The position numbers and the translations under genes were made by a program. Shown piece by piece: positions 4,203 to 22,593 of a stretch of DNA of 64,000 nucleotides (positions are counted from its first letter, which is position 1; every line of letters starts with the position of its first letter). This DNA is from Brevundimonas goettingensis (GTDB lineage Bacteria > Pseudomonadota > Alphaproteobacteria > Caulobacterales > Caulobacteraceae). Under the pieces are notes generated by a model, which saw only the letters and a program-made list of their open reading frames with translations, had not been told where the DNA came from and did no database searches. The stretch spans positions 3,791,501 to 3,855,500 of the forward strand of contig NZ_CP062222.1 of the NCBI RefSeq assembly GCF_017487405.1, given 5' to 3'.

Positions 4203-5360
4203 TCAGCCCCAACGATCCACGTCGACCTCTGACTGCATGATGCGCAGCTCGGACCAGCGTTCGGCGAAGGCGGCGTAGGCGTCGGTCTTGCTGGTCTCGC
4301 TCAGGGTCTCGGTCGCCGCATAGACGGCCTGGGCCATGTCGTTCCAGGAGAAGGTCGCGGCCCGCTCAAGTCCCTTGCGCCGAAGCGCCACGCGGTTCGC
4401 CTCGACCTGCACCGAACCAAGAGCGGCGACCATCTCGGGCGCCGAGGAGCCTTCGATGGTGATGCAGGCGTCGCCGGCCACCTCTCCGAGAGATCCGCGT
4501 TTGGTGGTGATGACCGGGCAGCCGCAGGCCATGGCTTCCAGCACGGGCAGGCCGAAGCCTTCGTAAAGCGACGGATAGACCAGGGCGAGAGCGCCGGTAT
4601 AGGCCGCGGCCAGCTCCGCATTGGTGGCGACGATCCGCTTGATCTTCATCCCGGGCGGCAGAAGGGCCAGACTGGCCGGATTGATTTCCGGTTCGCCGCC
4701 GATGCACAGGATGTCGAAATCGGTGCGCTTGATCGCGGCGACGGCGTCGAAGAACAGCCGGGTGTTCTTGTAGCCGAGATGCTGCTCGCGCGATCCGACC
4801 ATCACAACATAGGGCCGGTCGAAGCCGACGGCGTCGCGCAGGGCCTGAACGGCCGCTTCCGTCGCCGGTTTGAACACCGCCGTGTCATAGCCGAGCAAGG
4901 CCACTTCGGCGGCGTTCGCCGTATGGGGATAGAGCCGGATCAAGTCCGTGCGCGTGCTCTCGGAGATCGAGATCGTCGACCGGGCGTAGGAGATGGCGAC
5001 GGCCTTTTCCTGCCAGTGACGGTGCGACAGGTCGAAGTCGAACAGCTCCGGAATCATGTCGTAGACCATCAGGAACATCGGAGTGGTCAGCGGTGTCGTG
5101 TAGTAGGTCGAGGTGAAGACATCGACCTTGTAGAAGTCGCACACCTTCTGGATCAGGATGCTGTCATCGGCCGTGTAGTGGTCCTTGTAGGCCGGGAAAG
5201 GAATCCGCTTCAGGCCCGGGATATCCGGGATTCCGCCCCGATCCAGGATCAGGACCTCCAGCCGGGTGTCGGCGATCAGCAGGGGCAGGATCGATTGCCA
5301 GACCCGGGCGATGCCGGAGCTGGCCAGTTGGAAGAAGACGCCGTCGATCAGGAGCTTCAT
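4203..5360 (-). CDS. Glycosyltransferase family 4 (GT-B fold)
   Basis: A 385-residue GT-B retaining glycosyltransferase. The N-terminal half begins MKLLIDGVFFQLASSGIAR, the acceptor-side Rossmann domain with its glycine-rich loop. The C-terminal half has VVMVGSREQHLGYKN and then EGFGLPVLEAMACGCPVIT, the E-x7-E signature that holds the nucleotide-sugar donor. No signal peptide or membrane segment is seen, so it acts in the cytoplasm or at the inner membrane surface. Its ATG overlaps the stop of the upstream DUF4214-GT2 gene by 4 bp (ATGA), showing translational coupling. Sugar specificity is unknown; GDP-mannose or GDP-fucose would fit the neighbours. Confidence 0.88.
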   Translation of the reverse strand: MKLLIDGVFFQLASSGIARVWQSILPLLIADTRLEVLILDRGGIPDIPGLKRIPFPAYKDHYTADDSILIQKVCDFYKVDVFTSTYYTTPLTTPMFLMVYDMIPELFDFDLSHRHWQEKAVAISYARSTISISESTRTDLIRLYPHTANAAEVALLGYDTAVFKPATEAAVQALRDAVGFDRPYVVMVGSREQHLGYKNTRLFFDAVAAIKRTDFDILCIGGEPEINPASLALLPPGMKIKRIVATNAELAAAYTGALALVYPSLYEGFGLPVLEAMACGCPVITTKRGSLGEVAGDACITIEGSSAPEMVAALGSVQVEANRVALRRKGLERAATFSWNDMAQAVYAATETLSETSKTDAYAAFAERWSELRIMQSEVDVDRWG

Positions 5361-7501
5361 GCTGCGGCTCCGGTCTGGCCGGCGCCGTGCGCGCGCAGCG
5401 CCGCCTGCAGGATGTCATAACGCCTGTGGCTGTCGGCGACCTCGGCCGAAACCGGTCCGACCTTCGCCAGGAAGTCGGCGTCGCTCAGAGTCAGAAGGGG
5501 CGACACGATCTGGCGATAGAGGGTGCGCGAAATTGCATTGGCCTCGACCACGCCGCGCGTATCGGCCCGGGTCGAGAGGCCTTGGGGGTTCACGTAGTAG
5601 GCCACATGCGGCTCGTTGAGCTTGTAGAAGGTCTTGCCCTTGATCAGGCAGCGCAGCCAGAAATCGAAGTCCGCCGCCGACTTGTAGCTCTCATTGAAGA
5701 CCCCGACCTCGGCGTGCAGGGTCTTGCGCCACATCGGTCCGTTATGCGGGCTGTTGAACTCCATCAGATTGTAGTGGCTGATGACCGGCAGTTTGGCGCG
5801 CAGCCCATGTGCCTCGATCTCTTCGAAGCTGATGTTGGGCTCGAAGGAATAGAGGACGTCCTGATAGGTCACGTCGACGAAGGGCAGGGAATCCAGCACC
5901 GAGGCCTGAAGTTCCAGCGAGTCCGCCCGGCGGCAGTCGTCCAGGTTGGCGTTGGTCAGAAAGCGGCCTTTGGCCAGGGCGCAGCCGATGTTCCAGGCCT
6001 CGTAGATGCCGATCCGGCTTTCGAACCGGCGATAGACGATATTGGGGAAGCGCTCGGCGTAGCGTTCGATCACTTCGCCCTCGTTCTCGGGCGAGTTGGC
6101 GTCGATGATGATTAGTTCGCAGTGATCCTTGAAGATCGTCTGGCTCGTGATGTTCTCGAGGAAGGGCTCGATATAGTCGCCGCCGCGATACAGGCTGGTG
6201 ATGATGCTCACGACCGGACCCTTGGTCCGCTTCATACGGAAGAGATTGGCCGGAACTGCACCCTCGCGGGGCTCCAGCCGGGGTCGGGTGTCCCAGACCT
6301 CAGCATCAACCACTCCTTCGGAGCCGAACAGATAGGCCTGGCTGGGGTCGTTCTCGGTATTGGGGGTCTCGACGGCCAGGCGGCGTTTCATCGAGTCCTG
6401 GAAGAAGCTGGCGGTCAGGGACTCGACAGACAGGCCGGAGCGCTCCATCCGATCCCGGAAATGGTCGACCTCGAACGCCGAGGCGCCGCGCCCCAGGATG
6501 ATCTCATAGGCCATCTGGACCAAGACGCCGGACGAAACGTCGGACGGCGCCGCGCCACGCCGGACATTCTGGGCCTCCGCGCTTTCCGCAATGGCGATCA
6601 CGACGTTGGAAAGCCGGCCCGTGCTCTGGAACATGTCGTACCAGACGGCGATCTCCTGCGGCGCTGGCGGCCGCTTGAGAATGTCCTGGTAGAGGATGCG
6701 GATAACGTATTCGACCTGTTCCCGGGGCTCCAGGATCGCCGCTTCGGGTTCGACGGCGGGCACAGGGGCGGGGGTCACATCGGCGACGACCGCCGAGAGA
6801 TCGGCGCCGCGTCGGAAATGTTCGAACCGCCCCAAGGCTTCGTCGAGGGCCGGCGGCTCGCGGCCGGCTGCGCGGTAGACCTGGGCGATGGTGGCCAGCA
6901 CGTCGTCCGTACGGATGCTGTAGGCCTCGTGGGACCGCATGATCACCGGTGATTCGGCCTCGTCGACACCTTCCGGCTCGATCACCTCCGGCGGCGTCGC
7001 CGCCTCGACCGCCTCCTCCCGGACCGCCCGCGCCTCTTCGCTTTCCACGATCGAGGCGATCAGATGGGGCAGGGGCGTGCCGCGTTCGAGTTCGGTCTTG
7101 TAGTGACCCAGCTCGGTTTCGGACGCGTCTCTTTCGAGGACGGCGCCGTACAGCAGGGCGAAGAAGGCCGCGGCGTCGAGATCCGCGAACGTCGTCGGGT
7201 CCAGGAGGATTGGACGCTCCCACGGCGGAATCGGCGGGTTGCCGCGCAGGTTCCGCTCGCGGACCGCCTGAGCCTCCTCGCTACCTGCGATTGAGGCGAT
7301 GATCGCGGCCGCAGGCCAGCCGCTATCGAGGGTCCGCAGGTAGAGGTCCAGGAGATCCTCGCCGACCTCGCGCTCCAACACCGCCTCATAGAGGGCCTGG
7401 AAGACCAGGCGGTCGCTCACACCGGCGCCGAGACGCTGCGGGTCGGGATCGGCGGCAGTCTCGGCAAGTGTCATCGGTTCCGCGTTCTTTCGGTTCTTCA
7501 T
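5357..7501 (-). CDS. DUF4214 repeat - GT2 glycosyltransferase fusion
   Basis: This 714-residue protein combines two parts. Residues about 25-400 hold four or five DUF4214-like units with the pattern LYxAVLxRxxxxxxLxxY followed by an IASIxxSEEA-type helix, for example LYEAVLEREVGEDLLDLY and RILYQDILKRPPAPQEIAVW. From about residue 430 there is a GT-A, family 2 domain: VVSIITSLYRGGDYIEPFL, then ELIIIDANSPENEGE, then FLTNANLDDCRR, where ANLDD takes the place of the usual DxD. It lies in an operon with GDP-fucose synthase upstream and a GT4 enzyme overlapping downstream. DUF4214 modules also occur in the two secreted RTX proteins nearby, so this one may help the enzyme recognise them; that is a hypothesis. 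Confidence 0.85.
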   Translation of the reverse strand: MKNRKNAEPMTLAETAADPDPQRLGAGVSDRLVFQALYEAVLEREVGEDLLDLYLRTLDSGWPAAAIIASIAGSEEAQAVRERNLRGNPPIPPWERPILLDPTTFADLDAAAFFALLYGAVLERDASETELGHYKTELERGTPLPHLIASIVESEEARAVREEAVEAATPPEVIEPEGVDEAESPVIMRSHEAYSIRTDDVLATIAQVYRAAGREPPALDEALGRFEHFRRGADLSAVVADVTPAPVPAVEPEAAILEPREQVEYVIRILYQDILKRPPAPQEIAVWYDMFQSTGRLSNVVIAIAESAEAQNVRRGAAPSDVSSGVLVQMAYEIILGRGASAFEVDHFRDRMERSGLSVESLTASFFQDSMKRRLAVETPNTENDPSQAYLFGSEGVVDAEVWDTRPRLEPREGAVPANLFRMKRTKGPVVSIITSLYRGGDYIEPFLENITSQTIFKDHCELIIIDANSPENEGEVIERYAERFPNIVYRRFESRIGIYEAWNIGCALAKGRFLTNANLDDCRRADSLELQASVLDSLPFVDVTYQDVLYSFEPNISFEEIEAHGLRAKLPVISHYNLMEFNSPHNGPMWRKTLHAEVGVFNESYKSAADFDFWLRCLIKGKTFYKLNEPHVAYYVNPQGLSTRADTRGVVEANAISRTLYRQIVSPLLTLSDADFLAKVGPVSAEVADSHRRYDILQAALRAHGAGQTGAAA

Positions 7502-10370: not shown

Positions 10371-13300
10371 CTAGTGGAAGGTCCAGTGGCCGGTGTCGTC
10401 GACGCGGCGCCAGGCGGAATGGTCGCCGTTGAGGTCGATCCCGTCGCCGCCGGTCCATTCGGGCAGGGTCAGGGCGACATCGTGGCCCGGGACGGGCGCC
10501 TCATCCGGGAACAGATCGGACTTGAGGTCGCCGGGCGCAGGCTCTTCGAACGGCAGGACCAGCGGCTCCAGCGCGACCTCGGCCGGCAGGACGAAGGCGT
10601 CGTCGTGGATCAGGGCGGGCAGGGTCAGGGCGGGCAGGGTCAGGGCCACGTCCTTGATCGCGGCGTCTTCACTGGCCACGGCCGGCAGCACCAGGGCGTC
10701 GCCGGGCCCGTCCTCAGAGGTGAGGGTCGGCAGGACCAGAGGCTCGGCGGCCGCCTTGGCGGCGGCGTCGCCGACCACCTCGGCCGGGCTGGAGTGGTAA
10801 TCGAAGGTCTGGATGCCGGCCAGCATGTTGGGCGTGGTCAGGTTGACGTGCTCCTGGCTCTCGGAGAACTCCAGCAGGACCTGGGCGCGGGTCCTGAGGC
10901 CCGCGTCGATGTTGTTGACCCAGTTCTGGATCCCGGCCGGGTCGCCCTCGCGGTTCAGGCAGAAGCGGAACAGCTGGGCCACGAAGTCCCAGTTGGACAG
11001 GCCGCCGTAGCGGGCCTGGAACTCGGGGGAATCGGCAAAGCCGGAGGCGATCTGGGACAGGGCCATGCCGCCCTTGAGCGAGGCCGTCCAGCCGATCAGC
11101 CCGGCCGAATCCGGCAGCCGGTCGAAGGTGGCGTCATACAGCCGGGCGATGATCAGGGCCTGCTGGTCGGCGACCCACAGACCCTGGTTGAGCACCGCCT
11201 GCGTGAGGCCCCGATGTTCGGCGCTCTCGGAGAAGCCGATGACGACGTCGCCGCGGCTCATCCCGGCGTTGAGGCTGGCGGTCCAGCCGTTGACCCCCTC
11301 CGGCTCACCGTCGCGGCCCAGGGAGAAGCGGTACAGCTGTTCGATGAAGGTGCGGTTGTCCAGGGCGCCGAAGCGGTCGAGGAACTCGGCCGAATGGACG
11401 AAGGCGTCGGCCAGGGTGCGCAGGGTGATGGTCCCGTTGGCGATCCAGGCCGCCTGGCCCTCCAGCCCCGCCTCGTCATAGTGCCGGCCCAGGGCCGCAT
11501 CGTACAGCCGCATGACCTGGGCCGAGGCGCTGTCCACGTCGAACGTCAGCGTCCCGTCCACGAAGCGCGCGTTCTCGATCGAGGTCAGCGTATCCGCACC
11601 GCCCTCCGGCCCGCCCACGACCGTCGAACTGTTCGCCGTCCCGTATTGACGACGGATGCCCGCGTAGGCCGCCGTGTCGATCCCGTCGCCGCCGTTGATC
11701 TGATCAGAACCCGCACCGCCCGTCAGGACGTCGTTGCCCGCCAGACCGTTCAGGATGTCGTTGCCGGCCAGACCGTTGATGACGTCATTGCCCGTCGTGC
11801 CGCTCAGGGTGTCCGCACTGGCCGTGCCGTTGACGACGTTCAAAGAAGCGAGCGCGACGGTCCGGTCAGCAAACTTCAGGAACTCGAAGTTGGTGAGGGT
11901 GCTCGTGCCGGACCCGGTGCCCGATACCGTCGTCACGCCATCGATCGTCCTGATGGTATAGGCGGAAAACAAGCCCGAAAAGACGGCGGTGTCGGAGCCC
12001 GCTCCCCCGTCAAGGGTGTCGTTGCCTCCCCCGCCGGTAATGAGGTCGTCGCCGGCGGCGCCATTGAAGGTTTCGGCGCCGCTGCTGCCGATCAGATTGT
12101 CCGCGAAGTTCGAGCCGACAAAGCGGGAAACGAAGCCGATATAGTCCCGACCGGATCCGCCGGTGTCCTGAGCTCCCTGGATGCGAAGGTCGAGGGTAAT
12201 GCCCGACCGGGCGTCGCTGTAGTCGACGATGTCCAGTGAGTTTCCCAGACCCCCATAGATAGTGTCATCGCCGTCACCGCCCTGAAGGATGTCGCCGGTG
12301 CCGCTGCCCAGCAGGGTGTCGTTTCCGTCGCCGCCGAACAGATGGCCTCTGGAGCCTCCGGTGTTGGAGATCTTGTCGTTGCCTTCGCCGCCGTATAGCC
12401 AGCCCTCGACGGTACGGCTGTTGATGACGTCGTTGCCCGCCTCCCCGAAGAAGCGGCTGTAGAGGCCGTCGCCGCTCAGGACGTCATCGCCGTCGCCGCC
12501 ATGGACGAGATCGGTCCCGCCTCCGGCGTCGATGGTGTCGTGACCTGCGTCGCCGTACAGAATGTCATCATCCCATCCGCCGGAAATATTGTCATTGCCG
12601 CCGCCGCCGTGGATTTCGTCGTCGCCGTAGTCGCCGATGAGCCGCTCCCCGTCGTCGCCGCCGTAGATGATGTCGTGTCCAAAACCGCCGGTGATCAGGT
12701 TGGCGCCGGATCCCCCGTAAAGGGTGTCGTCGCCATCGCCGCCATCGATGGTGTCGGCGTCCGCGCCGCCGTCGATGACATCATTGCCAATGCCGCCCGA
12801 GAGTAGATCCCCGCCGACGCCCCCGTCGATCCGGTCGTTCCCAACTCCACCCGCGATGATATCGTCCCCGGCGCCGCCATAGGCGTCCATCCCGCCCTCG
12901 TCATCGACCAGCCGGTCATTGCCGTCGCCGCCTTCAAGCCGATCCCAGCCGCGTCCGCCGGCCAGGAGATCATCGCCTGTGCCGCCGATAAGCAGGTCGT
13001 CCCCATCCTCGCCGAAGATGCGATCGGCCCCCGCCCCGCCTTCGATGCGGTTGGCTCGCGCGTCGCCGATCAGATCGTCCGCCGAAGCCGCGCCTGTCAG
13101 CGACCCGTCGCCCCCCGGAGACGCGCTGGATCCGCCGGTGGCCAGGGCGTTCCATTGTGACAAGGAAAGCGTCGTTGCGCCCCGCACCAGAACCGAGCCG
13201 CCCGTGTAGGTCAGGCGAGTGTCCGCGCCCTCGATCGTCGCGCCCAGGAACTGCGCGCCACCCAGGGCGAACCGGTCCTCGGCGGCATCGAAACCCTCGA

Positions 13301-14567
13301 TGATATCGTCGCCGCCGTCCGCGCCCAGAACGATCTCGTCGGCCCCTGCCGACAGCACCAGACGGTCCGATCCCGCGCCCCCGATCAGGGTGTCGCCGCC
13401 AGCGGCGTAAAGGATGTCCGCGCCGTCGCCGCCGAACAACAGGTCTCGACCCGCACCACCGGTCAGGCGGTCGTCGCCGGCATCGCCGAAGATCAGGTCG
13501 TCGCCATCGCCGCCGTCCACCGCATCCGCGCCTGACCCGGCGTGAATTTCATCGCGACCCGCGCCGCCGAAGACATCGTCGTTGCCGGTCCCGGAGAAGA
13601 CGCGGTCATCACCGTCGCCCATGGACAGACGGCCGACCAGCCGTCCCTCACCGCCCAGGAAGAGATCGTCGCCCGAAGCGAAGGAGATGTTGCCGGAGAT
13701 CAGCCCGGTGTTGGTGATCCTGTCCGTGCCGAAATACAGGGTGATGTCGCCGCGGATTTCGCCGGTGTTCTCGATCCAGTCGTTGCCGACGGGGAAGAAG
13801 CCGCCGCTGACCGGGCGCTCGGTGATGGCGACGGCGGCGCTGATCAGGCCAGAGTTGAAAATGTGCGAATCGAAGACACCGGCGGCGACGGATATGCCGA
13901 TGCTGGTGTCGGTTCCCGACGTCTTTTGCGCTGTGATCGTGCCGGTGTTGAGGAACTCGCTGTGATGTCCCCAGATCAGCACGCCGATGGCGGAGGCGGA
14001 GCCGCGGACATCGATAAGCCCCGAGTTATGACCCAGGCCGCCATTGTACATCATGATCCCGCTGGCGTTGCGGTCGGAAGTGACGGTCACCCGGCCCGAG
14101 TTCAGGAACTCGAAGCCCATGTAGTCGCTGTCGCTGCCCGTAACCCCGCCGTTATAGGTGCTCAGCGCGGTCGCATCGCCGAGGGACTCGACGATAAACA
14201 CTCCGTCGTTCTGAAAATCTGCGCTCCCGCCACCGGAGAAAAAGCCGAAGACGTCCGTAGACGCGGTTTCCCCGGAAAAGCGCATAACCCCCGTCACTGT
14301 GTTGACGAAGGTTGCTTCAAAAAAGTCCCCGCCATCGGTCAGATAGTCGTTGTATATGCCGTTGAAAATGACGCGTGTGCCGGACAGGAAGGGCGCCGCA
14401 TTGCTGTGCGCCCAGATCGTGCCACGGTTGATCAGATGCGGCGCCAGCTCCAGTTGCCCATAGTCCTGGGTCGGATCCTGAACCCGAAAGGCCGGGGTGT
14501 TCACAAACTCTAGCGACTGACCTTCACCGACCTCATAGGTGGTGTCTCTAACCAGAATCGTCGGCAC
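10371..14567 (-). CDS. Large RTX repeat protein with DUF4214 module, probable type I secretion substrate
   Basis: The 1398-residue protein starts at a GTG (14567) preceded by a GGGGG-type ribosome site. Residues 1 to ~300 carry recurring N-[TS]-G turns (LNTGTI, FNSGLI, ENTGEI, TNTGLI) typical of a right-handed beta-helix or adhesin-like passenger. From about 300 to 950 there are dozens of GGxGxDxUx calcium-binding RTX nonapeptides in several blocks. Residues ~957-1342 form a DUF4214 module almost identical to that of the adjacent protease. A [LF]xLP-rich tail follows, ending DDTGHWTFH. There is no Sec signal peptide, as expected for type I export. It is the last gene after ABC exporter, adaptor and protease. 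Likely a secreted or surface-bound protein; an adhesin or S-layer-like role is inferred. Confidence 0.88.
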   Translation of the reverse strand: MPTILVRDTTYEVGEGQSLEFVNTPAFRVQDPTQDYGQLELAPHLINRGTIWAHSNAAPFLSGTRVIFNGIYNDYLTDGGDFFEATFVNTVTGVMRFSGETASTDVFGFFSGGGSADFQNDGVFIVESLGDATALSTYNGGVTGSDSDYMGFEFLNSGRVTVTSDRNASGIMMYNGGLGHNSGLIDVRGSASAIGVLIWGHHSEFLNTGTITAQKTSGTDTSIGISVAAGVFDSHIFNSGLISAAVAITERPVSGGFFPVGNDWIENTGEIRGDITLYFGTDRITNTGLISGNISFASGDDLFLGGEGRLVGRLSMGDGDDRVFSGTGNDDVFGGAGRDEIHAGSGADAVDGGDGDDLIFGDAGDDRLTGGAGRDLLFGGDGADILYAAGGDTLIGGAGSDRLVLSAGADEIVLGADGGDDIIEGFDAAEDRFALGGAQFLGATIEGADTRLTYTGGSVLVRGATTLSLSQWNALATGGSSASPGGDGSLTGAASADDLIGDARANRIEGGAGADRIFGEDGDDLLIGGTGDDLLAGGRGWDRLEGGDGNDRLVDDEGGMDAYGGAGDDIIAGGVGNDRIDGGVGGDLLSGGIGNDVIDGGADADTIDGGDGDDTLYGGSGANLITGGFGHDIIYGGDDGERLIGDYGDDEIHGGGGNDNISGGWDDDILYGDAGHDTIDAGGGTDLVHGGDGDDVLSGDGLYSRFFGEAGNDVINSRTVEGWLYGGEGNDKISNTGGSRGHLFGGDGNDTLLGSGTGDILQGGDGDDTIYGGLGNSLDIVDYSDARSGITLDLRIQGAQDTGGSGRDYIGFVSRFVGSNFADNLIGSSGAETFNGAAGDDLITGGGGNDTLDGGAGSDTAVFSGLFSAYTIRTIDGVTTVSGTGSGTSTLTNFEFLKFADRTVALASLNVVNGTASADTLSGTTGNDVINGLAGNDILNGLAGNDVLTGGAGSDQINGGDGIDTAAYAGIRRQYGTANSSTVVGGPEGGADTLTSIENARFVDGTLTFDVDSASAQVMRLYDAALGRHYDEAGLEGQAAWIANGTITLRTLADAFVHSAEFLDRFGALDNRTFIEQLYRFSLGRDGEPEGVNGWTASLNAGMSRGDVVIGFSESAEHRGLTQAVLNQGLWVADQQALIIARLYDATFDRLPDSAGLIGWTASLKGGMALSQIASGFADSPEFQARYGGLSNWDFVAQLFRFCLNREGDPAGIQNWVNNIDAGLRTRAQVLLEFSESQEHVNLTTPNMLAGIQTFDYHSSPAEVVGDAAAKAAAEPLVLPTLTSEDGPGDALVLPAVASEDAAIKDVALTLPALTLPALIHDDAFVLPAEVALEPLVLPFEEPAPGDLKSDLFPDEAPVPGHDVALTLPEWTGGDGIDLNGDHSAWRRVDDTGHWTFH
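10541..11695. repeat. Copy A of ~1.15 kb duplicated DUF4214/LxLP module
   Basis: This stretch matches 14940-16079 almost base for base. By eye I find only a handful of substitutions and a 15-bp length difference. It encodes the DUF4214 part and most of the LxLP tail of the RTX protein. Recent duplication or gene conversion explains the identity, since the flanking RTX blocks have diverged. Confidence 0.9.
10606..10647. repeat. 15-bp tandem repeat encoding LTLPA
   Basis: The unit AGGGTCAGGGCGGGC (plus strand) is present in one full copy with partial copies on both sides. On the minus strand it encodes LTLPALTLPAL. The paralogous protease gene has exactly one unit fewer at 14998-15024, so unit number differs between the two copies. 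Confidence 0.85.
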
Positions 14568-14596
14568 GCTATCCCCCTGATACTTAACCCGGAATA

Positions 14597-14608
14597 CTCA
14601 ACCTTGAG
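14597..14608. promoter_or_regulatory. Short inverted repeat upstream of the RTX gene
   Basis: CTCAA-CC-TTGAG lies about 30 bp upstream of the GTG start of the RTX gene, inside the 189-bp gap that separates it from the protease gene. It could be an operator. The gap also holds a terminator, so the RTX gene probably has its own promoter here. Confidence 0.25.
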
Positions 14609-14713
14609 TTTTAGGGCGCCATATCGGGCTTGGCTAGCCAGACGGTAACCCGCGTTACTGGCCTGCGAAAATCACGCTTGTCGGTAGAACGGCCTGTCGC
14701 CTTCGGTCAGGCG

Positions 14714-14748
14714 AAACCCCCGGCGGCCCCGCGGTCGCCGGGGGTTTT
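14714..14748 (-). terminator. Rho-independent terminator of the protease gene
   Basis: CCCCCGGCG (14717-14725) pairs perfectly with CGCCGGGGG (14736-14744) around a 10-nt loop. A-run and T-run flank it, so it can end transcription on the minus strand 9 bp after the protease stop; it is symmetrical enough to act on both strands. Confidence 0.8.
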
Positions 14749-14756
14749 CGTGAGTC

Positions 14757-17700
14757 TTAGTGCAGTGTCCAGTGTCCGGTGTCGTTGAGGCGTGCGGGGA
14801 TGTGGTGTGCGGCCCATTCGGGGTCGTCGGAGAGGGTGAGGGCGGTGTCGTGACCGGCTTCGGGGGTGGCGCCGGTCAGGGGCGTGTGGGTCAGGGCTGC
14901 GGATGCCTCGTCTCCGGTCCCGTCGGTTCCGTCGTCGGCGGGCAGGACCAGCGGCGCCAGCGCGACCTCGGCCGGCAGGACGAAGGCGTCGTCGTGGATC
15001 AGGGCGGGCAGGGTCAGGGCCACGTCCTTGATCGCGGCGTCTTCACTGGCCATGGCCGGCAGCACCAGGGCGTCGCCGGGCCCGTCCTCAGAGGTGAGGG
15101 TCGGCAGGACCAGAGGCTCGGCGGCCGCCTTGGCGGCGGCGTCGCCGACCACCTCGGCCGGGCTGGAGTGGTAATCGAAGGTCTGGATGCCGGCCAGCAT
15201 GTTGGGCGTGGTCAGGTTGACGTGCTCCTGGCTCTCGGAGAACTCCAGCAGGACCTGGGCGCGGGTCCTGAGGCCCGCGTCGATGTTGTTGACCCAGTTC
15301 TGGATCCCGGCCGGGTCGCCCTCGCGGTTCAGGCAGAAGCGGAACAGCTGGGCCACGAAGTCCCAGTTGGACAGGCCGCCGTAGCGGGCCTGGAACTCGG
15401 GGGAATCGGCAAAGCCGGAGGCGATCTGGGACAGGGCCATGCCGCCCTTGAGCGAGGCCGTCCAGCCGATCAGCCCGGCCGAATCCGGCAGCCGGTCGAA
15501 GGTGGCGTCATACAGCCGGGCGATGATCAGGGCCTGCTGGTCGGCGACCCACAGACCCTGGTTGAGCACCGCCTGCGTGAGGCCCCGATGTTCGGCGCTC
15601 TCGGAGAAGCCGATGACGACGTCGCCGCGGCTCATCCCGGCGTTGAGGCTGGCGGTCCAGCCGTTGACCCCCTCCGGCTCACCGTCGCGGCCCAGGGAGA
15701 AGCGGTACAGCTGTTCGATGAAGGTGCGGTTGTCCAGGGCGCCGAAGCGGTCGAGGAACTCGGCCGAATGGACGAAGGCGTCGGCCAGGGTGCGCAGGGT
15801 GATGGTCCCGTTGGCGATCCAGGCCGCCTGGCCCTCCAGCCCCGCCTCGTCATAGTGCCGGCCCAGGGCCGCATCGTACAGCCGCATGACCTGGGCCGAG
15901 GCGCTGTCCACGTCGAACGTCAGCGTCCCGTCCACGAAGCGCGCGTTCTCGATCGAGGTCAGCGTATCCGCACCGCCCTCCGGCCCGCCCACCACCGTCG
16001 AACTGTTCGCCGTCCCGTACTGACGACGGATGCCCGCATACGCCGCCGTGTCGATCCCGTCGCCGCCGTCCAGATTATCCGAACCCGCACCGCCGTTCAA
16101 AAGATCGTTGCCGGGGGCGCCGACGATGGTGTCATTCCCGCCCAAGCCCAGGATGATGTCGTTGCCCGGACTTCCGTAAAGGTTCTCGCCGGCCTCTGTC
16201 CCGGTCAGCGCCGGGCCGTCCGGGGTCAGGGCGTAACGCTGCTGGCCGAATTGCAGAAACTCGACATTGGTCAAGGTGTCGATGCCTGTGCCGGCGCCGG
16301 AGGCGTTTCCGTTGATCGTGGTCACGCCGTTCGCCGTCGTGATGACGTACTGCATGTAGCTTCCGGTATAGAGCACCGTGTCGATGCCTGCTCCACCGTC
16401 TATACGGTCGTTGGCCGAGCCGGTATTGCTCATGTCGGAAGAGAGGCCCTGATAGAATATGTCATCCCCGTCCTCGCCAAACATGGTCGCGCCAACATGT
16501 TCCGTGTTGGCCACCGAGTGTCCGGGCACCGAGATGTGCATCGTATAGGTCGCGCCGGCCGTAATGTTCTTGGTCGTCAGCGAGGGTTCGTTGGACAACC
16601 ATTCGGTGACTTCAACGTAATACATGCCGTTCGCGGGAACGGTGAAGGTAATCGCGGAGTCCGTGTCATTGCCGCTGTCGCCCGGTGTCGAGCCGTCGTC
16701 GTTCGTCGCCAGGAGTTGGCCGTTGATATCGTAGAGGCGGATCACGCTGTCGAACGACGCATTGTCGATATCCACGACAATAGCAGCGCCGGCCGTGGCG
16801 GTGAATCCGTACCATTCGGCGTTGCCGCCGCTGGTGGAGACGACGGTGGCGTGCGGCACGGTCCCGGCATTGGCGACGTCCGTGCGGGGTAGGACATCGA
16901 AGGAGCCGTCGAGCTGGATCGCCTGGGCTCGGTTAATGTTGATGCCGTCCGCTCGCTTGATGAAGTCGGGCGCGCCACCGCTGAGACCGGTCAGGCCGGA
17001 GTAGAACGCGTCGTTGCCCGCGCCGCCGTACATGATATCGGCGCCGCCGTTGCCGCGCAGGATGTTGGCTCCGGCGTCGCCGCGCAGCAGGTCATCGTAA
17101 GAGGTGCCCCGCACGCCCTCGATGCCGATCAGAATGTCGGTTCCGGATCCGGCTCCGGTCGCCGTTCCCGCCGCCAGGTTGACCGTGACTGCGCTGGCGG
17201 CGAGGGCGTAGCTCGCCTCATCCGCCCCCGCGCCGCCGTCCAACCGGTCATTGCCAAGGCCGCCGGTCAGGATGTCGTCGCCATCGCCACCGTTCAGGGT
17301 GTCGTTCCCCGAGCCGCCGTCAAGCTGGTCATTCCCGCCCAGCCCGTTGAGGCTATCGTTTCCCCCGGCGCCAGAAAGGGTGTCGGTGAACGTGGTGCCG
17401 GTCATCAGATCGTTGGTTGCGTCGCCTGATACGTTCAGGCCGCCGGTCGGAGCCGCGGCGATGGTCTGGTCGGAGAAGGCCAGGAACTCGACATTGGTCA
17501 CCATGGTGAACTGGGGGCTGCCGTTGGCGGTGATGTAGCCGGTCCGCCCGTTCCAGGTGATCGTGTAATTCGCCAGTGCGCCGGAGAAGACCACCGTGTC
17601 GGTGCCCAGGCCGCCGTCTATGACGTCGGATCCGAGGGAGCCGCCGGACAGGCGGTTGTCGGCGGAGTTGCCATAGATGCGGTCGGATCCGGCCCCGCCG

Positions 17701-18845
17701 ATAGCGTTCTCGATGACCGCGCCCATGGCGATGGCGATGTTGCCCGTCAGGCCGCCAACGCTGGAGAACGAACCCTGGCGGAGGTCGATCGTCGCGGCCT
17801 GATTATAGCCCGAGAAGTCGAGGGTATCGACGCCGCCGGCATCCCAGACGGCGAAGATCAGGCTTGTGGAGGCCGAGGTCGCGCTGAACCAGGCCCGGTC
17901 GGCGTTGGAGTTGAAGCCATAGACCGTGTCGCCGGTCCGCGTGGTCATATTGGCGCCGTACAGACGCTGGGCCGCCGCGATATCGTCCAGCAGGGGGACG
18001 GCGGAATACTGGCTCGCGAAGGTGCCGTTGGGCGCGCGATAGTTGCCCCCGGTGTTGGTTTCGCTGAAGTAGCTCATCACCGTGTACTGGCGGGAGTCTT
18101 CATAGTAGGTGGCGTCGACGCCGTAGGAGATGCTGACGCCTTCGGCGGCGTTGTAGGCGGCGGGATGGCTCAGGCCGATGGCGTGGCCGATCTCGTGCGT
18201 CAGGGTGTGCTGGCCATAGTTCAGCAGCGCCGGCGTGACGCTTGTGCCGCTATAGTTCACCCAGACGTCGCCTGACGCTGAAGTGACCGACTGGTTGCCC
18301 GGCATATAGGCGAAGGCCGCCGCTCCGGTCTGTCCCGAGGCATAGTCGCCGAACAGGATGGTGGCGTTGTCGGAATAGCCATCCCCGTCATTGACCCGGT
18401 TGAAGGTGATGTTGGCGACGTCCGACCAGGCCTGGAGCGCGGCCAGGGCCGCGGTGATCTGGACCTCGGTGAACCGGGTGAAGCCGGTCGTGTCCGAAGG
18501 CATCGACGAGGGTGCGGTGCTGCGGAAGGCGAAGCTGACCGAGGCAGCCGTGCCCAGGGCGCCGGTCGTCCAGCTCTGATTGGTGCGGGTGATCTGGGCG
18601 CCAGCGTCGGTCACCGTGAGCGATGGCTTGTTGTTGGTCGGCGTCCCGCCGCGGTCGTCGCCGTTCAGGAAGGCCAGGGGTCCGAAATCCGTGCTGTCGA
18701 AGTTGGCGTGATAGCTGCCGCAGCCGGGGCAGGGCGACGAGAAGCTTCCCTCGCTGAACTGGACCGCGCCGCCGCCCGCCGGCCCCATGGCCGCTCCGCT
18801 GTCGGTGAAACCGGTATCTTCGGGCAGAAGAGCCAGGACGGGCAT
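14757..18845 (-). CDS. Serralysin-like M10 metalloprotease with RTX, PPC-like and DUF4214 modules
   Basis: The 1362-residue protein has the zinc signature HEIGHAIGLSHP at residues 217-228 and the Met-turn YTVMSYF near 254-260, the hallmarks of serralysins (M10B). Blocks of GGxGxDxUx calcium-binding repeats follow at roughly 380-600 and 880-930. Between them residues ~660-790 (WYGFTATAGAAIVVDI to YYVEVTEW) look like a bacterial pre-peptidase C-terminal (PPC) domain. Residues ~922-1302 are the DUF4214 module shared with the RTX protein, then an LxLP tail ending NDTGHWTLH. A CPGCGSY motif lies near residue 36. It is far longer than the usual ~480-residue serralysin. Secretion by the adjacent exporter and control by the adjacent Inh homologue are inferred from context. 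Confidence 0.92.
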   Translation of the reverse strand: MPVLALLPEDTGFTDSGAAMGPAGGGAVQFSEGSFSSPCPGCGSYHANFDSTDFGPLAFLNGDDRGGTPTNNKPSLTVTDAGAQITRTNQSWTTGALGTAASVSFAFRSTAPSSMPSDTTGFTRFTEVQITAALAALQAWSDVANITFNRVNDGDGYSDNATILFGDYASGQTGAAAFAYMPGNQSVTSASGDVWVNYSGTSVTPALLNYGQHTLTHEIGHAIGLSHPAAYNAAEGVSISYGVDATYYEDSRQYTVMSYFSETNTGGNYRAPNGTFASQYSAVPLLDDIAAAQRLYGANMTTRTGDTVYGFNSNADRAWFSATSASTSLIFAVWDAGGVDTLDFSGYNQAATIDLRQGSFSSVGGLTGNIAIAMGAVIENAIGGAGSDRIYGNSADNRLSGGSLGSDVIDGGLGTDTVVFSGALANYTITWNGRTGYITANGSPQFTMVTNVEFLAFSDQTIAAAPTGGLNVSGDATNDLMTGTTFTDTLSGAGGNDSLNGLGGNDQLDGGSGNDTLNGGDGDDILTGGLGNDRLDGGAGADEASYALAASAVTVNLAAGTATGAGSGTDILIGIEGVRGTSYDDLLRGDAGANILRGNGGADIMYGGAGNDAFYSGLTGLSGGAPDFIKRADGININRAQAIQLDGSFDVLPRTDVANAGTVPHATVVSTSGGNAEWYGFTATAGAAIVVDIDNASFDSVIRLYDINGQLLATNDDGSTPGDSGNDTDSAITFTVPANGMYYVEVTEWLSNEPSLTTKNITAGATYTMHISVPGHSVANTEHVGATMFGEDGDDIFYQGLSSDMSNTGSANDRIDGGAGIDTVLYTGSYMQYVITTANGVTTINGNASGAGTGIDTLTNVEFLQFGQQRYALTPDGPALTGTEAGENLYGSPGNDIILGLGGNDTIVGAPGNDLLNGGAGSDNLDGGDGIDTAAYAGIRRQYGTANSSTVVGGPEGGADTLTSIENARFVDGTLTFDVDSASAQVMRLYDAALGRHYDEAGLEGQAAWIANGTITLRTLADAFVHSAEFLDRFGALDNRTFIEQLYRFSLGRDGEPEGVNGWTASLNAGMSRGDVVIGFSESAEHRGLTQAVLNQGLWVADQQALIIARLYDATFDRLPDSAGLIGWTASLKGGMALSQIASGFADSPEFQARYGGLSNWDFVAQLFRFCLNREGDPAGIQNWVNNIDAGLRTRAQVLLEFSESQEHVNLTTPNMLAGIQTFDYHSSPAEVVGDAAAKAAAEPLVLPTLTSEDGPGDALVLPAMASEDAAIKDVALTLPALIHDDAFVLPAEVALAPLVLPADDGTDGTGDEASAALTHTPLTGATPEAGHDTALTLSDDPEWAAHHIPARLNDTGHWTLH
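14940..16079. repeat. Copy B of the duplicated DUF4214/LxLP module
   Basis: Partner of 10541-11695, encoding the DUF4214 module of the protease. The encoded DUF4214 residues are identical over more than 250 positions as far as I can read; a Met/Val change lies in the tail and the LTLPA unit is single. Confidence 0.9.
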
Positions 18846-18995
18846 GAAAAAGGCCTGAAATGAACTGGTGGTTTCAGCACCGTAACGTCAATAGCCCGAA
18901 GGACAAGCGTCAGGGTTTGCACCGATTGCGAATGTCTGCGCCATCGTGCGCGCCGCCACGGCATGGAGCTGTAGCAAGGCCTGCAATTTACGGCG

Positions 18996-20345
18996 TCATT
19001 CTTCCGATCCGGTCCGCCACAGGCTGCGGACCAAGGGTTCGACCAGATACTGCAGGGCGGTGCGCTTTCTCAGCAGGACCACCACCTCGACCGGCATGCC
19101 GGGCCGGATGTGTCGAGCCGAGGCGCCCAGTTTGCGAAGCTCAGCCGGCGAGATGACCACCTCGGCGCGATAGTGGCTCTGCCCGGTCTTCTCGTCGGTG
19201 AAGCTGTCGGGGGAAATCCGCTCGACGGTCCCGTGCAGGATGGGGGTTGAGCGATCGCGCAGGCCAGGAAACTTGACCTCGGTCGATTGTCCAAGCCTGA
19301 GGTTGTCGACATCGGTGGGTTTGATTGAGGCGACAATGACCTGGGAGGCGTTGTCCGGAACGACATCCATCAGAACCTGTCCCGGAGCGATGACGCCGCC
19401 GACGGTGAAGACCGTCAGCCCGACGACCTGGCCCGTGGCGGGCGCGCGAATGCGGGACAGGGCCATCTGGCTGCGCAGCTCGACCAGTTTGGGACGAAGC
19501 TCGTTCAGGGCCACCTCCGCCTGACGCAGCTGATCCGCCACGTCCTCGTTCATCTTGGTCGATACGCCGAGCATCTCCAGCCGGGTCTGGCCGACCGCCT
19601 CGCCCGTGCTGGCCACTTGGGCGCGCAGCGAGCCAAGCTCGCCGTCGAGGGCCGCGGCGGTCCGTTCCAGGGCCCGAACCCGGTTCTGTGGCGCGAAGCC
19701 CTTGGCCGCGAGCTCACGGATGCCGTCCAGCTCCTCCTCGATCAGCCGGCGCTGTTCGACATTGGAGGCGATCTGGCGCTCCAGCCCGGCCCGTTGCTGG
19801 TCCAACTGGCCGATGCGTTGGCCCAGAACCCCGGTTTCGGTCGATCGTCCGCTGCGTCGGGCGGCGAACTGCAGCCGTTGCAGGCGCATCGCCTCATTCG
19901 CCAGCGGCCGGTCCTCGGGGATCAGGGTCGCGAATTCAGGCGGTGTGGCGACGGCGGGCAGCCTGTCGCGTTCGGCGACCATTCGGGCGCGCTGGGCCAG
20001 CAGGGAGACGACCTGACCGGCGACGCCGCGCTCTGTCGCCGCCAGTTCCCCGGTCGACAGTTCGATCAGGACCTGTCCCTGTTGGACGCGGTCGCCTTCG
20101 GCGACATGCAGGGCGCTGACGATGCCCCCCTCTCGATGCTGGACGGCCTGACGATTGCCGGAGATCGAGACCTGGCCTTGGGCGAAGGCTCCGGCATCGA
20201 GCGGGGCGAACGCCGCCCAGCCCAGGAAGATGATGAAGAACAGGGCGATGACCGCGCCGCCGATCATCAGCTCGAGGCGCGGAGAATCCGTCACCGGTTG
20301 AGAGGCGGGCGAGGGGTTTGCGGGATGGGGTGAGACGGCGGTCAT
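18996..20345 (-). CDS. Type I secretion periplasmic adaptor (HlyD/PrtE family)
   Basis: The 449-residue protein is the membrane fusion partner that links an inner-membrane ABC exporter to a TolC-type channel. After ~28 residues there is one membrane segment (MIGGAVIALFFIIFLGWAAF), then GQVSISGNRQAVQHREGGIV (first half of a lipoyl-like domain). A long coiled coil follows at ~110-290, then the second lipoyl half and beta-barrel (RIRAPATGQVVGLTVFTVGG). These match the PrtE/AprE/RsaE family in order and length. Its start overlaps the exporter stop by 4 bp, and the protease gene follows 150 bp downstream. Confidence 0.92.
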   Translation of the reverse strand: MTAVSPHPANPSPASQPVTDSPRLELMIGGAVIALFFIIFLGWAAFAPLDAGAFAQGQVSISGNRQAVQHREGGIVSALHVAEGDRVQQGQVLIELSTGELAATERGVAGQVVSLLAQRARMVAERDRLPAVATPPEFATLIPEDRPLANEAMRLQRLQFAARRSGRSTETGVLGQRIGQLDQQRAGLERQIASNVEQRRLIEEELDGIRELAAKGFAPQNRVRALERTAAALDGELGSLRAQVASTGEAVGQTRLEMLGVSTKMNEDVADQLRQAEVALNELRPKLVELRSQMALSRIRAPATGQVVGLTVFTVGGVIAPGQVLMDVVPDNASQVIVASIKPTDVDNLRLGQSTEVKFPGLRDRSTPILHGTVERISPDSFTDEKTGQSHYRAEVVISPAELRKLGASARHIRPGMPVEVVVLLRKRTALQYLVEPLVRSLWRTGSEE

Positions 20346-22081
20346 TGGGGGCGGTTTCCGGCCGGGACGGCCAGCTCGCCGCGGATTTTGGCCAACACGT
20401 CTTCGCGGGGGCCTTCCATCTGCACCGCGCCGTCGCGCAACGTCATCAGCCGGTCGACCCGCGCCAGCACCCCGGCCCGGTGGGCGACGATGACGACGGC
20501 GGCGCCGCGTGCGGCGGCCGCGAGAATGGCGTTCATCAGGGCGATCTCGCCCTCCTGGTCCAGGCTGGAATTGGGCTCGTCGAGGACCAGCAGCGCCGGG
20601 TTTCCGAACAGGGCGCGGGCCAGGGCGATGCGTTGGGCCTGTCCGGCCGAGACGCCGGCGCCGAAGGGGCCAAGCATCGTGTCATATCCCTTGGGCAGCC
20701 GCAGGATCATTTCATGCGCGCCGGCGGACATGGCGGCCTCGACGGCGCGCGAGTCCACTTCCGCGACCGGCGCGCCGGTCGCGGCGGCGAAGCGGGAGAT
20801 ATTGTCCTTGATCGAGCCGGCGAAGAGGCTGGAATTCTGGGGCAGATAGCCGATGTGTCGGGCCAGATCGTCGGACTCCCGCGCGCCGTAGTCGGCGCCG
20901 TCCAGCCGGACGATGCCTGCGGTCGGTGTGAGGGCTCCCGCGATGACCCGGGCGAAGGTCGTCTTGCCGGAACCGCTGGGGCCGATCACGCCCAGGGTCT
21001 GACCTGGAGACAAAACCAGAGACACCTGACGCAGCTGCGGCGTTTCCGTGCCGGGCAGGCGCACCGTAACGGCCTCCACCCGAAGCTTGCCCGCGGGGGC
21101 GGGCAGGGCGGTGCGGGGCCGCTCGACCTCAGCCGTGGCGACGAAAAGATCGACAAGCGCCTTCCAGCTGGTGCGGGCCTGGGTCAGGTTGGGCCAGGCG
21201 CCGACCAGAAGCTCCACCGGCGCCACGGCGCGGCTGAGCAGCACCGAGGCGGCGATGATCGAACCAGGCGAAATCTGTCCCTTGACCGCGAGGAAGGCGG
21301 CGAGCCCCAGCGACAGGGATTGCAGCGCCAGCCTCAGGAATTTGATGGCCCCGGAGTATTTGCCGCCGTTCAACTGGGCGTCGGCGTATTGCTCCACCGA
21401 GGTCTTACGTTCCTCGATCTGGCGATTGATGCTGGCCTCGCGCATGCCCAGTGCGCGGACGACCTCGGTCTGGCCGGCGATGGCTTCCTGGGCGGCATAG
21501 GCGGTGTTGGTCGACTGGATCGCCCGCTTCAGTCGGGGGCGGCTGTCGCGTTCATTGAGAACCGCCAGGGCGAACAGGATAATCCCGCCTGCAAGCGTCA
21601 GGGCGCCGATGGCCGGGTGCAGCAGGAAGCAGCAGGCCAGATAAAGCGGTGTCCAGGGGGCGTCGAACAGCGCCAGAATTCCCTGACCGGAAACCGCGCT
21701 CCGCACATTGTCGAACTCGCGCATGGTCTGGCTGGAGGCTTTGCCGCCCGGCAGATCGACGATGCGCGCCATGACCTTGGCCGCCAGCAGCTTGTCAAGG
21801 CGAAGGCCGGCCCGGATCAGCAGCCGCGTGCGCAGCCAGTCGAGCGCGGCGAGGGCGCCCAGGGCGAACACCGCCACCACCGTCAGCAGGGCGAGCGTCA
21901 GCATGCCGCCTGTCGGCACGACGCGGTCATACACCTGCATCATGTAGAGGGTTGGAACCAGGTAGAGCAGATTGACCAGCGCGCTGAAGATCAGTGCGTT
22001 GGTGAAATGCACCCTGCAGGCCTTGAAGGCCTCCATCAAAGGCCTGGCGCCGGGCTGGTCGGAAACCAGGCTTTTGAACAC
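20342..22081 (-). CDS. Type I secretion ABC transporter (PrtD/RsaD family)
   Basis: An exporter half-transporter with an N-terminal membrane domain and a C-terminal ATPase. Walker A is GPSGSGKTTF, the signature is VSAGQAQRIALARALF, and Walker B is LLVLDEPNSSLD; SAGQ and DEPNS are typical of the PrtD-type protease and S-layer exporters. I place the start at the GTG at 22081 (579 residues), which has an AGGAG site 10 nt upstream and gives the usual family length. The frame is also open to a GTG at 22141, which lacks a ribosome site and would leave only 38 bp to the divergent inhibitor gene. It is first in the exporter-adaptor-protease-RTX order. Confidence 0.92.
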   Translation of the reverse strand: MFKSLVSDQPGARPLMEAFKACRVHFTNALIFSALVNLLYLVPTLYMMQVYDRVVPTGGMLTLALLTVVAVFALGALAALDWLRTRLLIRAGLRLDKLLAAKVMARIVDLPGGKASSQTMREFDNVRSAVSGQGILALFDAPWTPLYLACCFLLHPAIGALTLAGGIILFALAVLNERDSRPRLKRAIQSTNTAYAAQEAIAGQTEVVRALGMREASINRQIEERKTSVEQYADAQLNGGKYSGAIKFLRLALQSLSLGLAAFLAVKGQISPGSIIAASVLLSRAVAPVELLVGAWPNLTQARTSWKALVDLFVATAEVERPRTALPAPAGKLRVEAVTVRLPGTETPQLRQVSLVLSPGQTLGVIGPSGSGKTTFARVIAGALTPTAGIVRLDGADYGARESDDLARHIGYLPQNSSLFAGSIKDNISRFAAATGAPVAEVDSRAVEAAMSAGAHEMILRLPKGYDTMLGPFGAGVSAGQAQRIALARALFGNPALLVLDEPNSSLDQEGEIALMNAILAAAARGAAVVIVAHRAGVLARVDRLMTLRDGAVQMEGPREDVLAKIRGELAVPAGNRPQ

Positions 22082-22179
22082 GCGAAGTCGGCTCCTGATA
22101 ATTTCCAATCCTAGGCTCTTTGTGTCATTCCGGATAGACACCGCAGGCCGTGTCGGCGGTTAGAATTTCGGACAGGCGA

Positions 22180-22593
22180 ATGTCTTGGATTTTGCGGACC
22201 GCCGCGCTGGCGATGTTGGCGGGCTCAGGCCTGACGGGCGGCTGTGAAGCCAGGGAGGCGCCGATGTCCATCCACGAAACGGGCGATCGGGGCGTGATCG
22301 CGATCGAGGATGCGACCGGCCTGTGGCGGGCGACCTCAGGCGACGGCGGGGCGACCTGCCTGATCGCGCTGAGCGGATTCGCCCGGTCAGAGGACACGAC
22401 CAGCTATGGCGTCCATATCGAAGCCTGCGCCATTCAGCCCCTTGCAGCCGCCGTCGGCTGGCGGCCGGTCGTGGGCGGCTTCGAACTGATCGGTCCTGCG
22501 GGCAAGACGCTGGCGACTTTTGATCGTCGCGACGTTGACCTCTTCAATGCGGTTGAGGGCGGCTACCGTCTCGAACGCGCCCCGCTTGCCTAG
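22180..22593 (+). CDS. AprI/Inh-family metalloprotease inhibitor
   Basis: The 137-residue protein starts at the ATG at 22180. It has an export signal with Cys near residue 22 (SGLTGGC), which may be a lipobox but is off consensus, followed by about 115 residues. GLWRATSGDGGATCLIALSG, then a second Cys in EACAIQP, then GWRPVVGGFELIGPAGKTLA fit the Inh (alkaline protease inhibitor / Omp19) beta-barrel with its single disulfide. In Pseudomonas, Serratia and Erwinia such inhibitors are encoded next to the serralysin and its exporter and protect the periplasm from it. Here it is divergent from the exporter. The call is strengthened by this context. Confidence 0.82.
   Translation: MSWILRTAALAMLAGSGLTGGCEAREAPMSIHETGDRGVIAIEDATGLWRATSGDGGATCLIALSGFARSEDTTSYGVHIEACAIQPLAAAVGWRPVVGGFELIGPAGKTLATFDRRDVDLFNAVEGGYRLERAPLA

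Follow-up and report, generated by a model that had tools for sequence, protein, structure and literature searches.

A prt/apr-kind secretion locus of Brevundimonas goettingensis and its proposed modular cargo with a shared, homogenised C-terminal cassette

The gene order of Caulobacter places the RTX surface-layer (S-layer) protein RsaA beside its exporter genes (rsaADE) and near O-antigen genes. In a published survey, rsaADEF occurs only in the C. crescentus-segnis clade and in some Phenylobacterium (PMC12700997), and the N-terminal domain of RsaA is described as binding O-antigen (PMC6978808). A review of RTX proteins puts the typical serralysin at about 480 residues, describes the classical AprI/Inh inhibitor as a soluble periplasmic protein whose N-terminal residues enter the protease active site, and presents Sap as an RTX protease joined to an S-layer-like part (PMC3034196). 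Here we analyze five genes in a 64-kb stretch of the Brevundimonas goettingensis genome (contig NZ_CP062222.1, positions 3,791,501 to 3,855,500; the whole stretch is called the window, and the genome G000) that encode a PrtD-type exporter, an HlyD-type adaptor, a protease, an RTX protein and a protease inhibitor. Our preferred reading, which we hold at a probability of about 0.6, is that this is a prt/apr-kind type I secretion locus serving a modular cargo family with a common export-and-surface tail, and that gene conversion homogenizes the DNA cassette encoding it. The protease and the RTX protein would be best read as an analogue of the SapA/RsaA pair of Caulobacter that does without the RsaA anchor.

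Open reading frames and family searches, made with Pfam and NCBIfam profiles and against solved structures, confirm all five genes where a preliminary description of the DNA had placed them, four on the minus strand and the inhibitor divergent:

20342..22141, minus strand: PrtD-type type I secretion ATP-binding cassette (ABC) exporter, 599 residues (TIGR01842, 573.7 bits, cut-off 510.15)
18996..20345, minus strand: HlyD-type periplasmic adaptor, 449 residues, its start overlapping the exporter gene end by 4 bp (TIGR01843, 355.8 bits, cut-off 208.65)
14757..18845, minus strand: SapA-like serralysin, 1362 residues, with catalytic domain, RTX repeats, PPC domain, DUF4214 block and predicted disordered tail
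10371..14567, minus strand: RTX protein without a protease domain, 1398 residues (Pfam search)
22150..22593, plus strand: AprI/Inh-type protease inhibitor, 147 residues, predicted lipoprotein; likelier start ATG at 22180, lipobox-like LTGG-C

The C-terminal part that the protease and the non-protease RTX protein had been said to share is shared at the DNA level, as a 939-bp exact direct repeat that is far beyond chance; within the window, the one other exact direct repeat of at least 60 bp measures 64 bp and is itself part of this cassette. A third cassette gene, an RTX gene of 886 residues (in L011; G000:C1:361073-363733), lies at a distance of about 540 kb, assuming a circular contig. It is identical to the protease gene over 1312 bp, the identity stopping at the stop codon with some 8 bp of similarity beyond it and unrelated flanks. 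The last ~60 residues of the window's RTX protein are related to the protease tail, yet diverged from it. The cargo family would consist of a SapA-like protease and two RTX proteins of predicted beta-solenoid type, all ending in a cassette of one kind, a DUF4214 block with a disordered tail, whose parts lie as follows:

14758..16069, minus strand: protease-gene cassette, 1312 bp, identical to the third copy (gene G000:C1:361073-363733)
15054..15992, minus strand: the 939 bp of the protease gene found unchanged in the RTX gene (exact direct repeat)
10680..11618, minus strand: the 939 bp of the RTX gene that match the protease gene exactly; this stretch and the third copy also have an exact match of 939 bp
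15198..15902, minus strand: DUF4214 helical block of the protease, four stretches, limits approximate (Pfam DUF4214, 148.4 bits; model helices)
10824..11528, minus strand: DUF4214 helical block of the RTX protein, approximate limits transferred from the protease (Pfam DUF4214, 148.2 bits)
14760..15197, minus strand: C-terminal tail of the protease, predicted disordered, end DTGHWTLH, proposed export signal (model confidence, tail comparison)
10374..10823, minus strand: C-terminal tail of the RTX protein, end DTGHWTFH (tail alignment)

The 436-residue C-terminal module was sought in 131 genomes, all those returned by a search of the genus, and was matched in 35 of them (E <= 0.001), strongly (at least 229 bits) in 20. 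From 42 module-bearing open reading frame matches we compared the 39 with at least 280 aligned residues (20 genomes), leaving out three fragments (one from G055, two from G049). Between genomes, residue identity has a median of 53% and a maximum of 85%; within a genome, some core copies are at least 99% identical in four of the nine multi-copy genomes, G000 among them. Exact matches of at least 60 bp occur in 7/36 within-genome pairs versus 0/705 between-genome pairs, and reach 411-1308 bp in six of the 36. The paralogs thus resemble each other more within than between genomes, in a part with diverging flanks, as is expected of a gene family in concerted evolution. A module tree of 28 copies from nine genomes follows genome and not protein type, as the genome label requires 10 changes (least possible 8; mean 20.2 and minimum 17 over 200 shuffles) and the protein-type label 8 against a shuffle mean of 8.2.

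Two gene pairs illustrate the pattern. Among the other three genomes with near-identical copies it is clearest in G101, where two divergent proteases, separated by about 195 kb, have an identical end of 1194 bp and 35-72% residue identity over most of the rest; the catalytic-domain tree places one with G097 and G120 (98/93) and the other with a G088 protease (91/76, not starred). The third gene of G000 and its G066 counterpart are 67-90% identical per 60-residue block in the head (residues 1-359) and 29-67% identical in the module. The sequence comparisons directly support the view that gene conversion between cargo genes keeps the cassette of each genome near-identical even as the heads diverge. 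The control was a set of 29 RsaA_NTD domains in stretches fetched from six other Caulobacteraceae genomes, hand-chosen from the top matches; the longest exact match was 92 bp, and 2/63 within-genome pairs reached 60 bp. Homogenization as a general trait of surface modules was considered and rejected, as it is not seen for these 29 domains of six genomes.

Near-identical ends could also arise if the cassette had been copied recently onto the RTX genes, so that old copies were never homogenized. Such duplication would suit the abrupt end of the protease/third-gene identity at the stop codon and the unrelated flanks. However, the G066 relative of the third gene and the proteases of 18 other genomes already carry the C-terminal module, which means that modules were present earlier in these gene lineages; in the RTX gene the identical core is flanked by a tail that is related to that of the protease but diverged from it long ago; and the G101 proteases are old paralogs with identical ends. 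We consider recent duplication quite improbable. An error of assembly or polishing is hardly credible as the source of the identity: assemblies do err at long identical repeats and the frames of G003 and G049 are broken, but each of G000 and G101 is one contig, 100% complete, in which every copy has distinct flanks, the identity is seen in four separate genomes, and the compared RsaA_NTD paralogs do not show it.

The cargo proteins differ in their heads, for which the following parts were delimited:

17526..18680, minus strand: SapA/serralysin catalytic and first RTX part of the protease, residues ~56-440 (SapA profile, PrtC 1k7g)
16605..16814, minus strand: PPC domain of the protease, residues 678-747 (Pfam PPC, 41.1 bits, cut-off 25.9)
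13578..14567, minus strand: N-terminal beta-solenoid head of the RTX protein, residues 1-330 (predicted structure)

Residues 48-436 of the protease, its catalytic and beta-roll part, match the structure of secreted protease C (1k7g, E 1.6e-96), and Matrixin and Peptidase_M10_C exceed their Pfam cut-offs, as do the PPC and DUF4214 domains that the preliminary description had named. In the translation, HEIGHAIGLSHP and then VMSYF are legible; HEIGHAIGLSH, which fits HEXXHXXGXXH, and VMSYF are what we take to be the serralysin zinc motif and Met-turn. The best NCBIfam model is SapA (NF051884), at 577.5 bits below its cut-off of 1200 and over the catalytic half only, with profile positions 3-407 aligned to residues 56-463. 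The anchoring half of SapA, which is RsaA_NTD-like, has no match in G000 beyond profile position 422 of 644. The serralysin model NF035945 gives 454.1 bits, below its cut-off of 500, and the protein is a predicted protease and a serralysin (M10B) relative beyond that curated subfamily. Matches in Pfam, NCBIfam and solved structures agree with the earlier proposal of apr/prt-type content, a serralysin with its inhibitor.

A length nearly three times the normal had been singled out as unusual. The figure is about right, as the protease is 2.8 times as long as a typical serralysin, but it is not exceptional: 19 of the 20 strong-module genomes (the exception is G066) have the module in line with a SapA-like catalytic part and a PPC region, so that in module-bearing genomes of the genus the predicted long form is the rule and no oddity. 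In G003 and G049, of 89-91% completeness, the in-line protease parts stand in broken frames; G049 (L149-L151) has three module copies, one of them split, with protease pieces in different frames, and may be decaying or an indel-rich assembly. The tails of other SapA-like proteases, at L047, L053, L060 and L116, are of a different type, in which motifs such as YIASHADLI...HYVLNGQAEGR recur. Judging by these differing tails, the family seems to draw on several C-terminal modules that can be exchanged.

The RTX protein contains RTX repeats and DUF4214 by Pfam and no further Pfam family up to E 0.1. Its head, modelled over residues 1-345, is predicted to form a beta-solenoid (predicted local distance difference test (pLDDT) 87.7, predicted template modelling score 0.90), and related heads occur in 45 of 390 genomes of the family Caulobacteraceae. 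A fold search with the head returned no match at E <= 0.001; the weak matches were to glycan enzymes and adhesin beta-helices, and RsaA appeared at rank 34 with a probability of 0.02. The preliminary description had suggested that the RTX protein forms a surface layer or a scaffold that co-displays the protease. An S-layer is not supported, given that RsaA_NTD is found in 0/131 genus genomes (the Caulobacter control was positive), that the SapA anchoring half is not in G000, that the head has no confident fold match, and that rsaADEF has the limited distribution cited above; a coat of another kind is possible. Co-display through a common part is possible too, and favored, although that part is the DUF4214 tail and not a known lattice protein.

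The locus is self-contained only in part: exporter, adaptor, cargo and inhibitor stand together, as first described, but the TolC-type channel and the third cassette gene lie elsewhere. The sole channel over its cut-off is at G000:C1:754268-755473, outside the cluster (TIGR01844, 328.5 bits, cut-off 225.15), and completes the PrtD-type secretion parts of the genome, namely a PrtD ABC protein, an HlyD adaptor and TolC. Among 52 matches to the PrtD model in G000, one passes the cut-off and the next best has 235.9 bits; all 21 RTX-repeat matches of the genome fall inside the three cassette genes. That one PrtD exporter would export all three cassette proteins is well supported by this gene content. 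When nine PrtD candidates were scored per genome, a PrtD protein (E <= 1e-120) was found in 17/20 strong-module genomes versus 54/111 others (Fisher p = 0.003; the genomes are not independent).

An AlphaFold model of the module has mostly high confidence over residues 1-300, which form strands and then repeated helices; the helices at residues 56-290 mostly exceed a pLDDT of 90, and residues 301-436 fall below 50 and are probably disordered. For this tail we compared the last 40 residues of 40 copies, leaving out one copy without a stop codon and adding two RTX relatives. Tails are more alike within than between genomes, with a median score of 37 versus 24 and a mean reached by 0/2000 label shuffles (2/35 within-genome pairs with identical last 40 residues set aside, near-identical G003 and G049 pairs kept, pairs not independent), and a tryptophan near the end is nearly invariant. 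In this respect the tails resemble an export signal that is specific to each genome. Taking family knowledge, genome content and this likeness together, we infer that the C-terminal tail is the export signal by which PrtD, HlyD and TolC would export the cargo.

Alike tails would also be expected if the cassette were a secretion and folding tail only, with the proteins released and the protease acting as a free exoenzyme. Ordinary serralysins are extracellular enzymes, and their C-terminal tails are known export signals. However, the folded helical block of ~235 residues is dispensable for export, as serralysins of ~480 residues and an RTX relative in G102 do without it, and glycan genes nearby and RsaA_NTD at the same end of Caulobacter SapA relatives favor attachment. 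A purely secretory cassette is rather unlikely in our judgment.

The inhibitor alone reaches 19.5 bits with the Pfam Inh model, below the cut-off of 25, and 18 of the 19 members of its alignment match the model at E <= 0.01. Searched against solved structures, the family profile finds AprI (1jiw, E 2.9e-6) and the Erwinia inhibitor (1smp, E 7.7e-6), LupI at E 0.14-0.17 and nothing else up to E 1, in keeping with the family first proposed. In the 19 aligned rows (the window gene and L165-L183), a lipobox-type Cys32, C70 and C93 are invariant, and the protein is predicted to be an AprI/Inh-type lipoprotein. Since Cys32 predicts a lipidated N-terminus, the classical N-terminal mode of inhibition may not apply. 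The inhibitor gene is divergent to PrtD at a distance of 129-292 bp in 15 of the 29 genomes that carry such an inhibitor. It still stands divergent beside PrtD in G124, where the exporter is ~870 kb from the protease gene on the same contig.

The window also carries glycan genes, among them glycosyltransferases, a GDP-sugar epimerase family protein, a methyltransferase, a WcbI-like protein, a polysaccharide export protein and a ManC/epimerase enzyme. A homologous glycosyltransferase is present in 15/19 protease loci of relatives versus 0/18 other module loci, a ManC/epimerase enzyme in 7/19 and a GDP-mannose dehydratase family protein in 6/19, neither being found in the 18 others; the counts were made on stretches 7.8-19.9 kb long. 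Several of the other loci span less than 10 kb, two of the 18 (L126, L140) are SapA-like genes without PPC, and the protease loci share neighbors and are not independent. Among 61 other SapA-like loci (L061-L121, mostly Caulobacter and Phenylobacterium), 10 have a Caulobacter-like tail, and all 10 match RsaA_NTD at the same end. By analogy with these relatives, and with the glycan genes in view, we infer that the DUF4214 block may be a surface docking part.

Two further observations touch on these domains. A predicted glycosyltransferase at 5357-7501 on the minus strand, not far from the DUF4214 proteins of the locus, has a DUF4214 block ahead of its catalytic domain, which hints at a glycan-related role for DUF4214. 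RsaA_NTD is present in 33 of 390 Caulobacteraceae genomes and, in several of them outside the genus, occurs many times per genome, mostly C-terminally and in proteins of varied length (L271-L290); perhaps its role goes beyond the S-layer, to that of a surface anchor used across the family.

Under our preferred reading, the PrtD exporter and HlyD adaptor, together with a TolC protein from elsewhere in the genome, would export the cargo by way of the C-terminal tail, and the inhibitor, probably a lipid-anchored AprI/Inh relative, would guard the periplasm against leaked or stalled protease. Outside the cell, calcium would fold the RTX parts and the DUF4214 block would hold the cargo at the surface, most likely on an O-antigen or capsule made by the neighboring glycan genes; this is the weakest step of the proposal. 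Gene conversion between cargo genes would then keep the cassette near-identical within a genome while heads diverge, and might be favored since the cassette thereby stays matched to both exporter and surface.

Several observations weigh against this reading. Concerning the gene set, the recurrence in the genus that the preliminary description had asked about extends to the long protease but not to the arrangement, with the exporter adjoining a module gene in only 2/20 strong-module genomes (G000 and G088, within the fetched stretches), and PrtD (E <= 1e-120) is missing in three of the 20, two of which are 98-99% complete. Concerning conversion, the other five of the nine multi-copy genomes have within-genome identities of only 67-89%, their closest copies differing in at least 10.8% of residues, which is why homogenization is called episodic and not universal; two of the four genomes with near-identical copies, G003 and G049, are the incomplete ones with broken frames. 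Tail likeness is uneven, strong in G124, G089 and G102, with many G080 and G101 pairs scoring like between-genome pairs. The G102 RTX relative (L269, G102:C2), similar in head and repeats, has no module match yet shares the protease tail over ~80 residues, so that tail and DUF4214 block need not travel together. Concerning docking, 51 of the 61 other SapA-like loci are without the RsaA_NTD-type tail, L116 among them having another kind. Aligned by hhalign, the DUF4214 helical block and RsaA_NTD reach a probability of 12.9%, or 19.8% with 40 RsaA_NTD rows, and 0/300 shuffled decoys reach their score of 31.0, but the best decoy has 30.8; there is a hint, at most, of a common origin.

The structural comparisons bear on a different role for the block. 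Among the best 50 of 190 Foldseek matches of the module, phycobilisome entries fill ranks 1-39 (best E 2.2e-4; template modelling scores over the whole length are low), and the first other match is the RsaA N-terminal domain bound to lipopolysaccharide, at rank 40 with a probability of 0.11; by sequence, the best solved structure for DUF4214 is ApcH at E 0.3. The sole confident fold match of the block is therefore to phycobilisome linkers, which connect protein to protein, and the block might serve assembly, cargo binding cargo or a partner protein in a mixed coat or fibre of protease and solenoid proteins, close to the scaffold first suggested. Identical blocks would favor mixed assembly, and the RTX head is a predicted long solenoid. 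On the other hand, RsaA_NTD is absent from the genus (0/131), coat assembly makes little sense in the DUF4214-bearing glycosyltransferase, and 11/20 strong-module genomes have a single compared copy. We regard assembly as an unlikely but serious contender to the docking role.

A broader form of our preferred reading would make the DUF4214 cassette the replacement of the RsaA anchor in Brevundimonas, a common C-terminal pass for PrtD export and O-antigen or capsule docking. Exporter and glycan would vary between species, conversion would keep the cassette uniform per genome, new heads would gain export and docking at once, and DUF4214 and RsaA_NTD might be distant relatives of one glycan-binding helical fold. 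We offer this extension tentatively, as less likely than not.

One further feature lies between the protease and RTX genes:

14715..14746, minus strand: strong RNA hairpin just 3' of the protease stop codon (fold of 14695-14757 on the minus strand, -37.5 kcal/mol, z -4.27)

The hairpin may separate transcription of the RTX gene from that of the protease. On the minus strand, its U run is only short, and the terminator pattern was called there on the plus strand only; terminator-type patterns in this pattern scan were no more frequent than in shuffled sequence.

If the preferred reading is true, the C-terminal part of type I cargo would be a homogenized cassette common to the cargo of one exporter, with heads freely exchanged, and the matching of cargo to exporter would become testable. 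DUF4214 would acquire surface attachment as a candidate function in exported proteins, and its tail might be used to display proteins on bacteria that have no RsaA-type S-layer. A literature search whose scope excluded most subscription journals found no paper joining DUF4214 with RTX, none joining serralysin, Brevundimonas and type I secretion, and none joining gene conversion, RTX, C-terminal and type I secretion. A partial precedent is the rtx gene of Legionella, for which homogenization or gene conversion has been described among the repeats inside one gene (PMC2257941); homogenization is invoked for an RTX gene in both cases, and here it would concern a C-terminal cassette among separate genes.

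The Pseudomonas aprDEF-aprA-aprI and Erwinia prtG-inh-prtDEF loci, as reviewed in PMC3034196, resemble the Brevundimonas locus in joining a serralysin to PrtD/PrtE-type exporter parts and an Inh-type inhibitor. They differ in that here there is no TolC gene among the five, the protease is far longer, a second RTX cargo ends in the same cassette, and the inhibitor is divergent and predicted to be lipid-anchored instead of soluble in the periplasm. With Caulobacter rsaADE and its O-antigen genes, the locus has in common an exporter and RTX cargo near surface glycan genes, whereas it lacks RsaA_NTD and its cargo head is predicted to be a beta-solenoid. The nearest likeness is to SapA and RsaA of Caulobacter, which share with it a homologous catalytic half, RTX repeats and apparent type I secretion, as well as a protease that has a module in common with a non-protease exported RTX protein, a point treated in the RTX review. 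Unlike SapA, the protease has an added PPC domain and scores below the SapA cut-off, in a genus without RsaA_NTD; the module shared here is DUF4214, it is C-terminal in both partners, and it is largely identical at the level of DNA.

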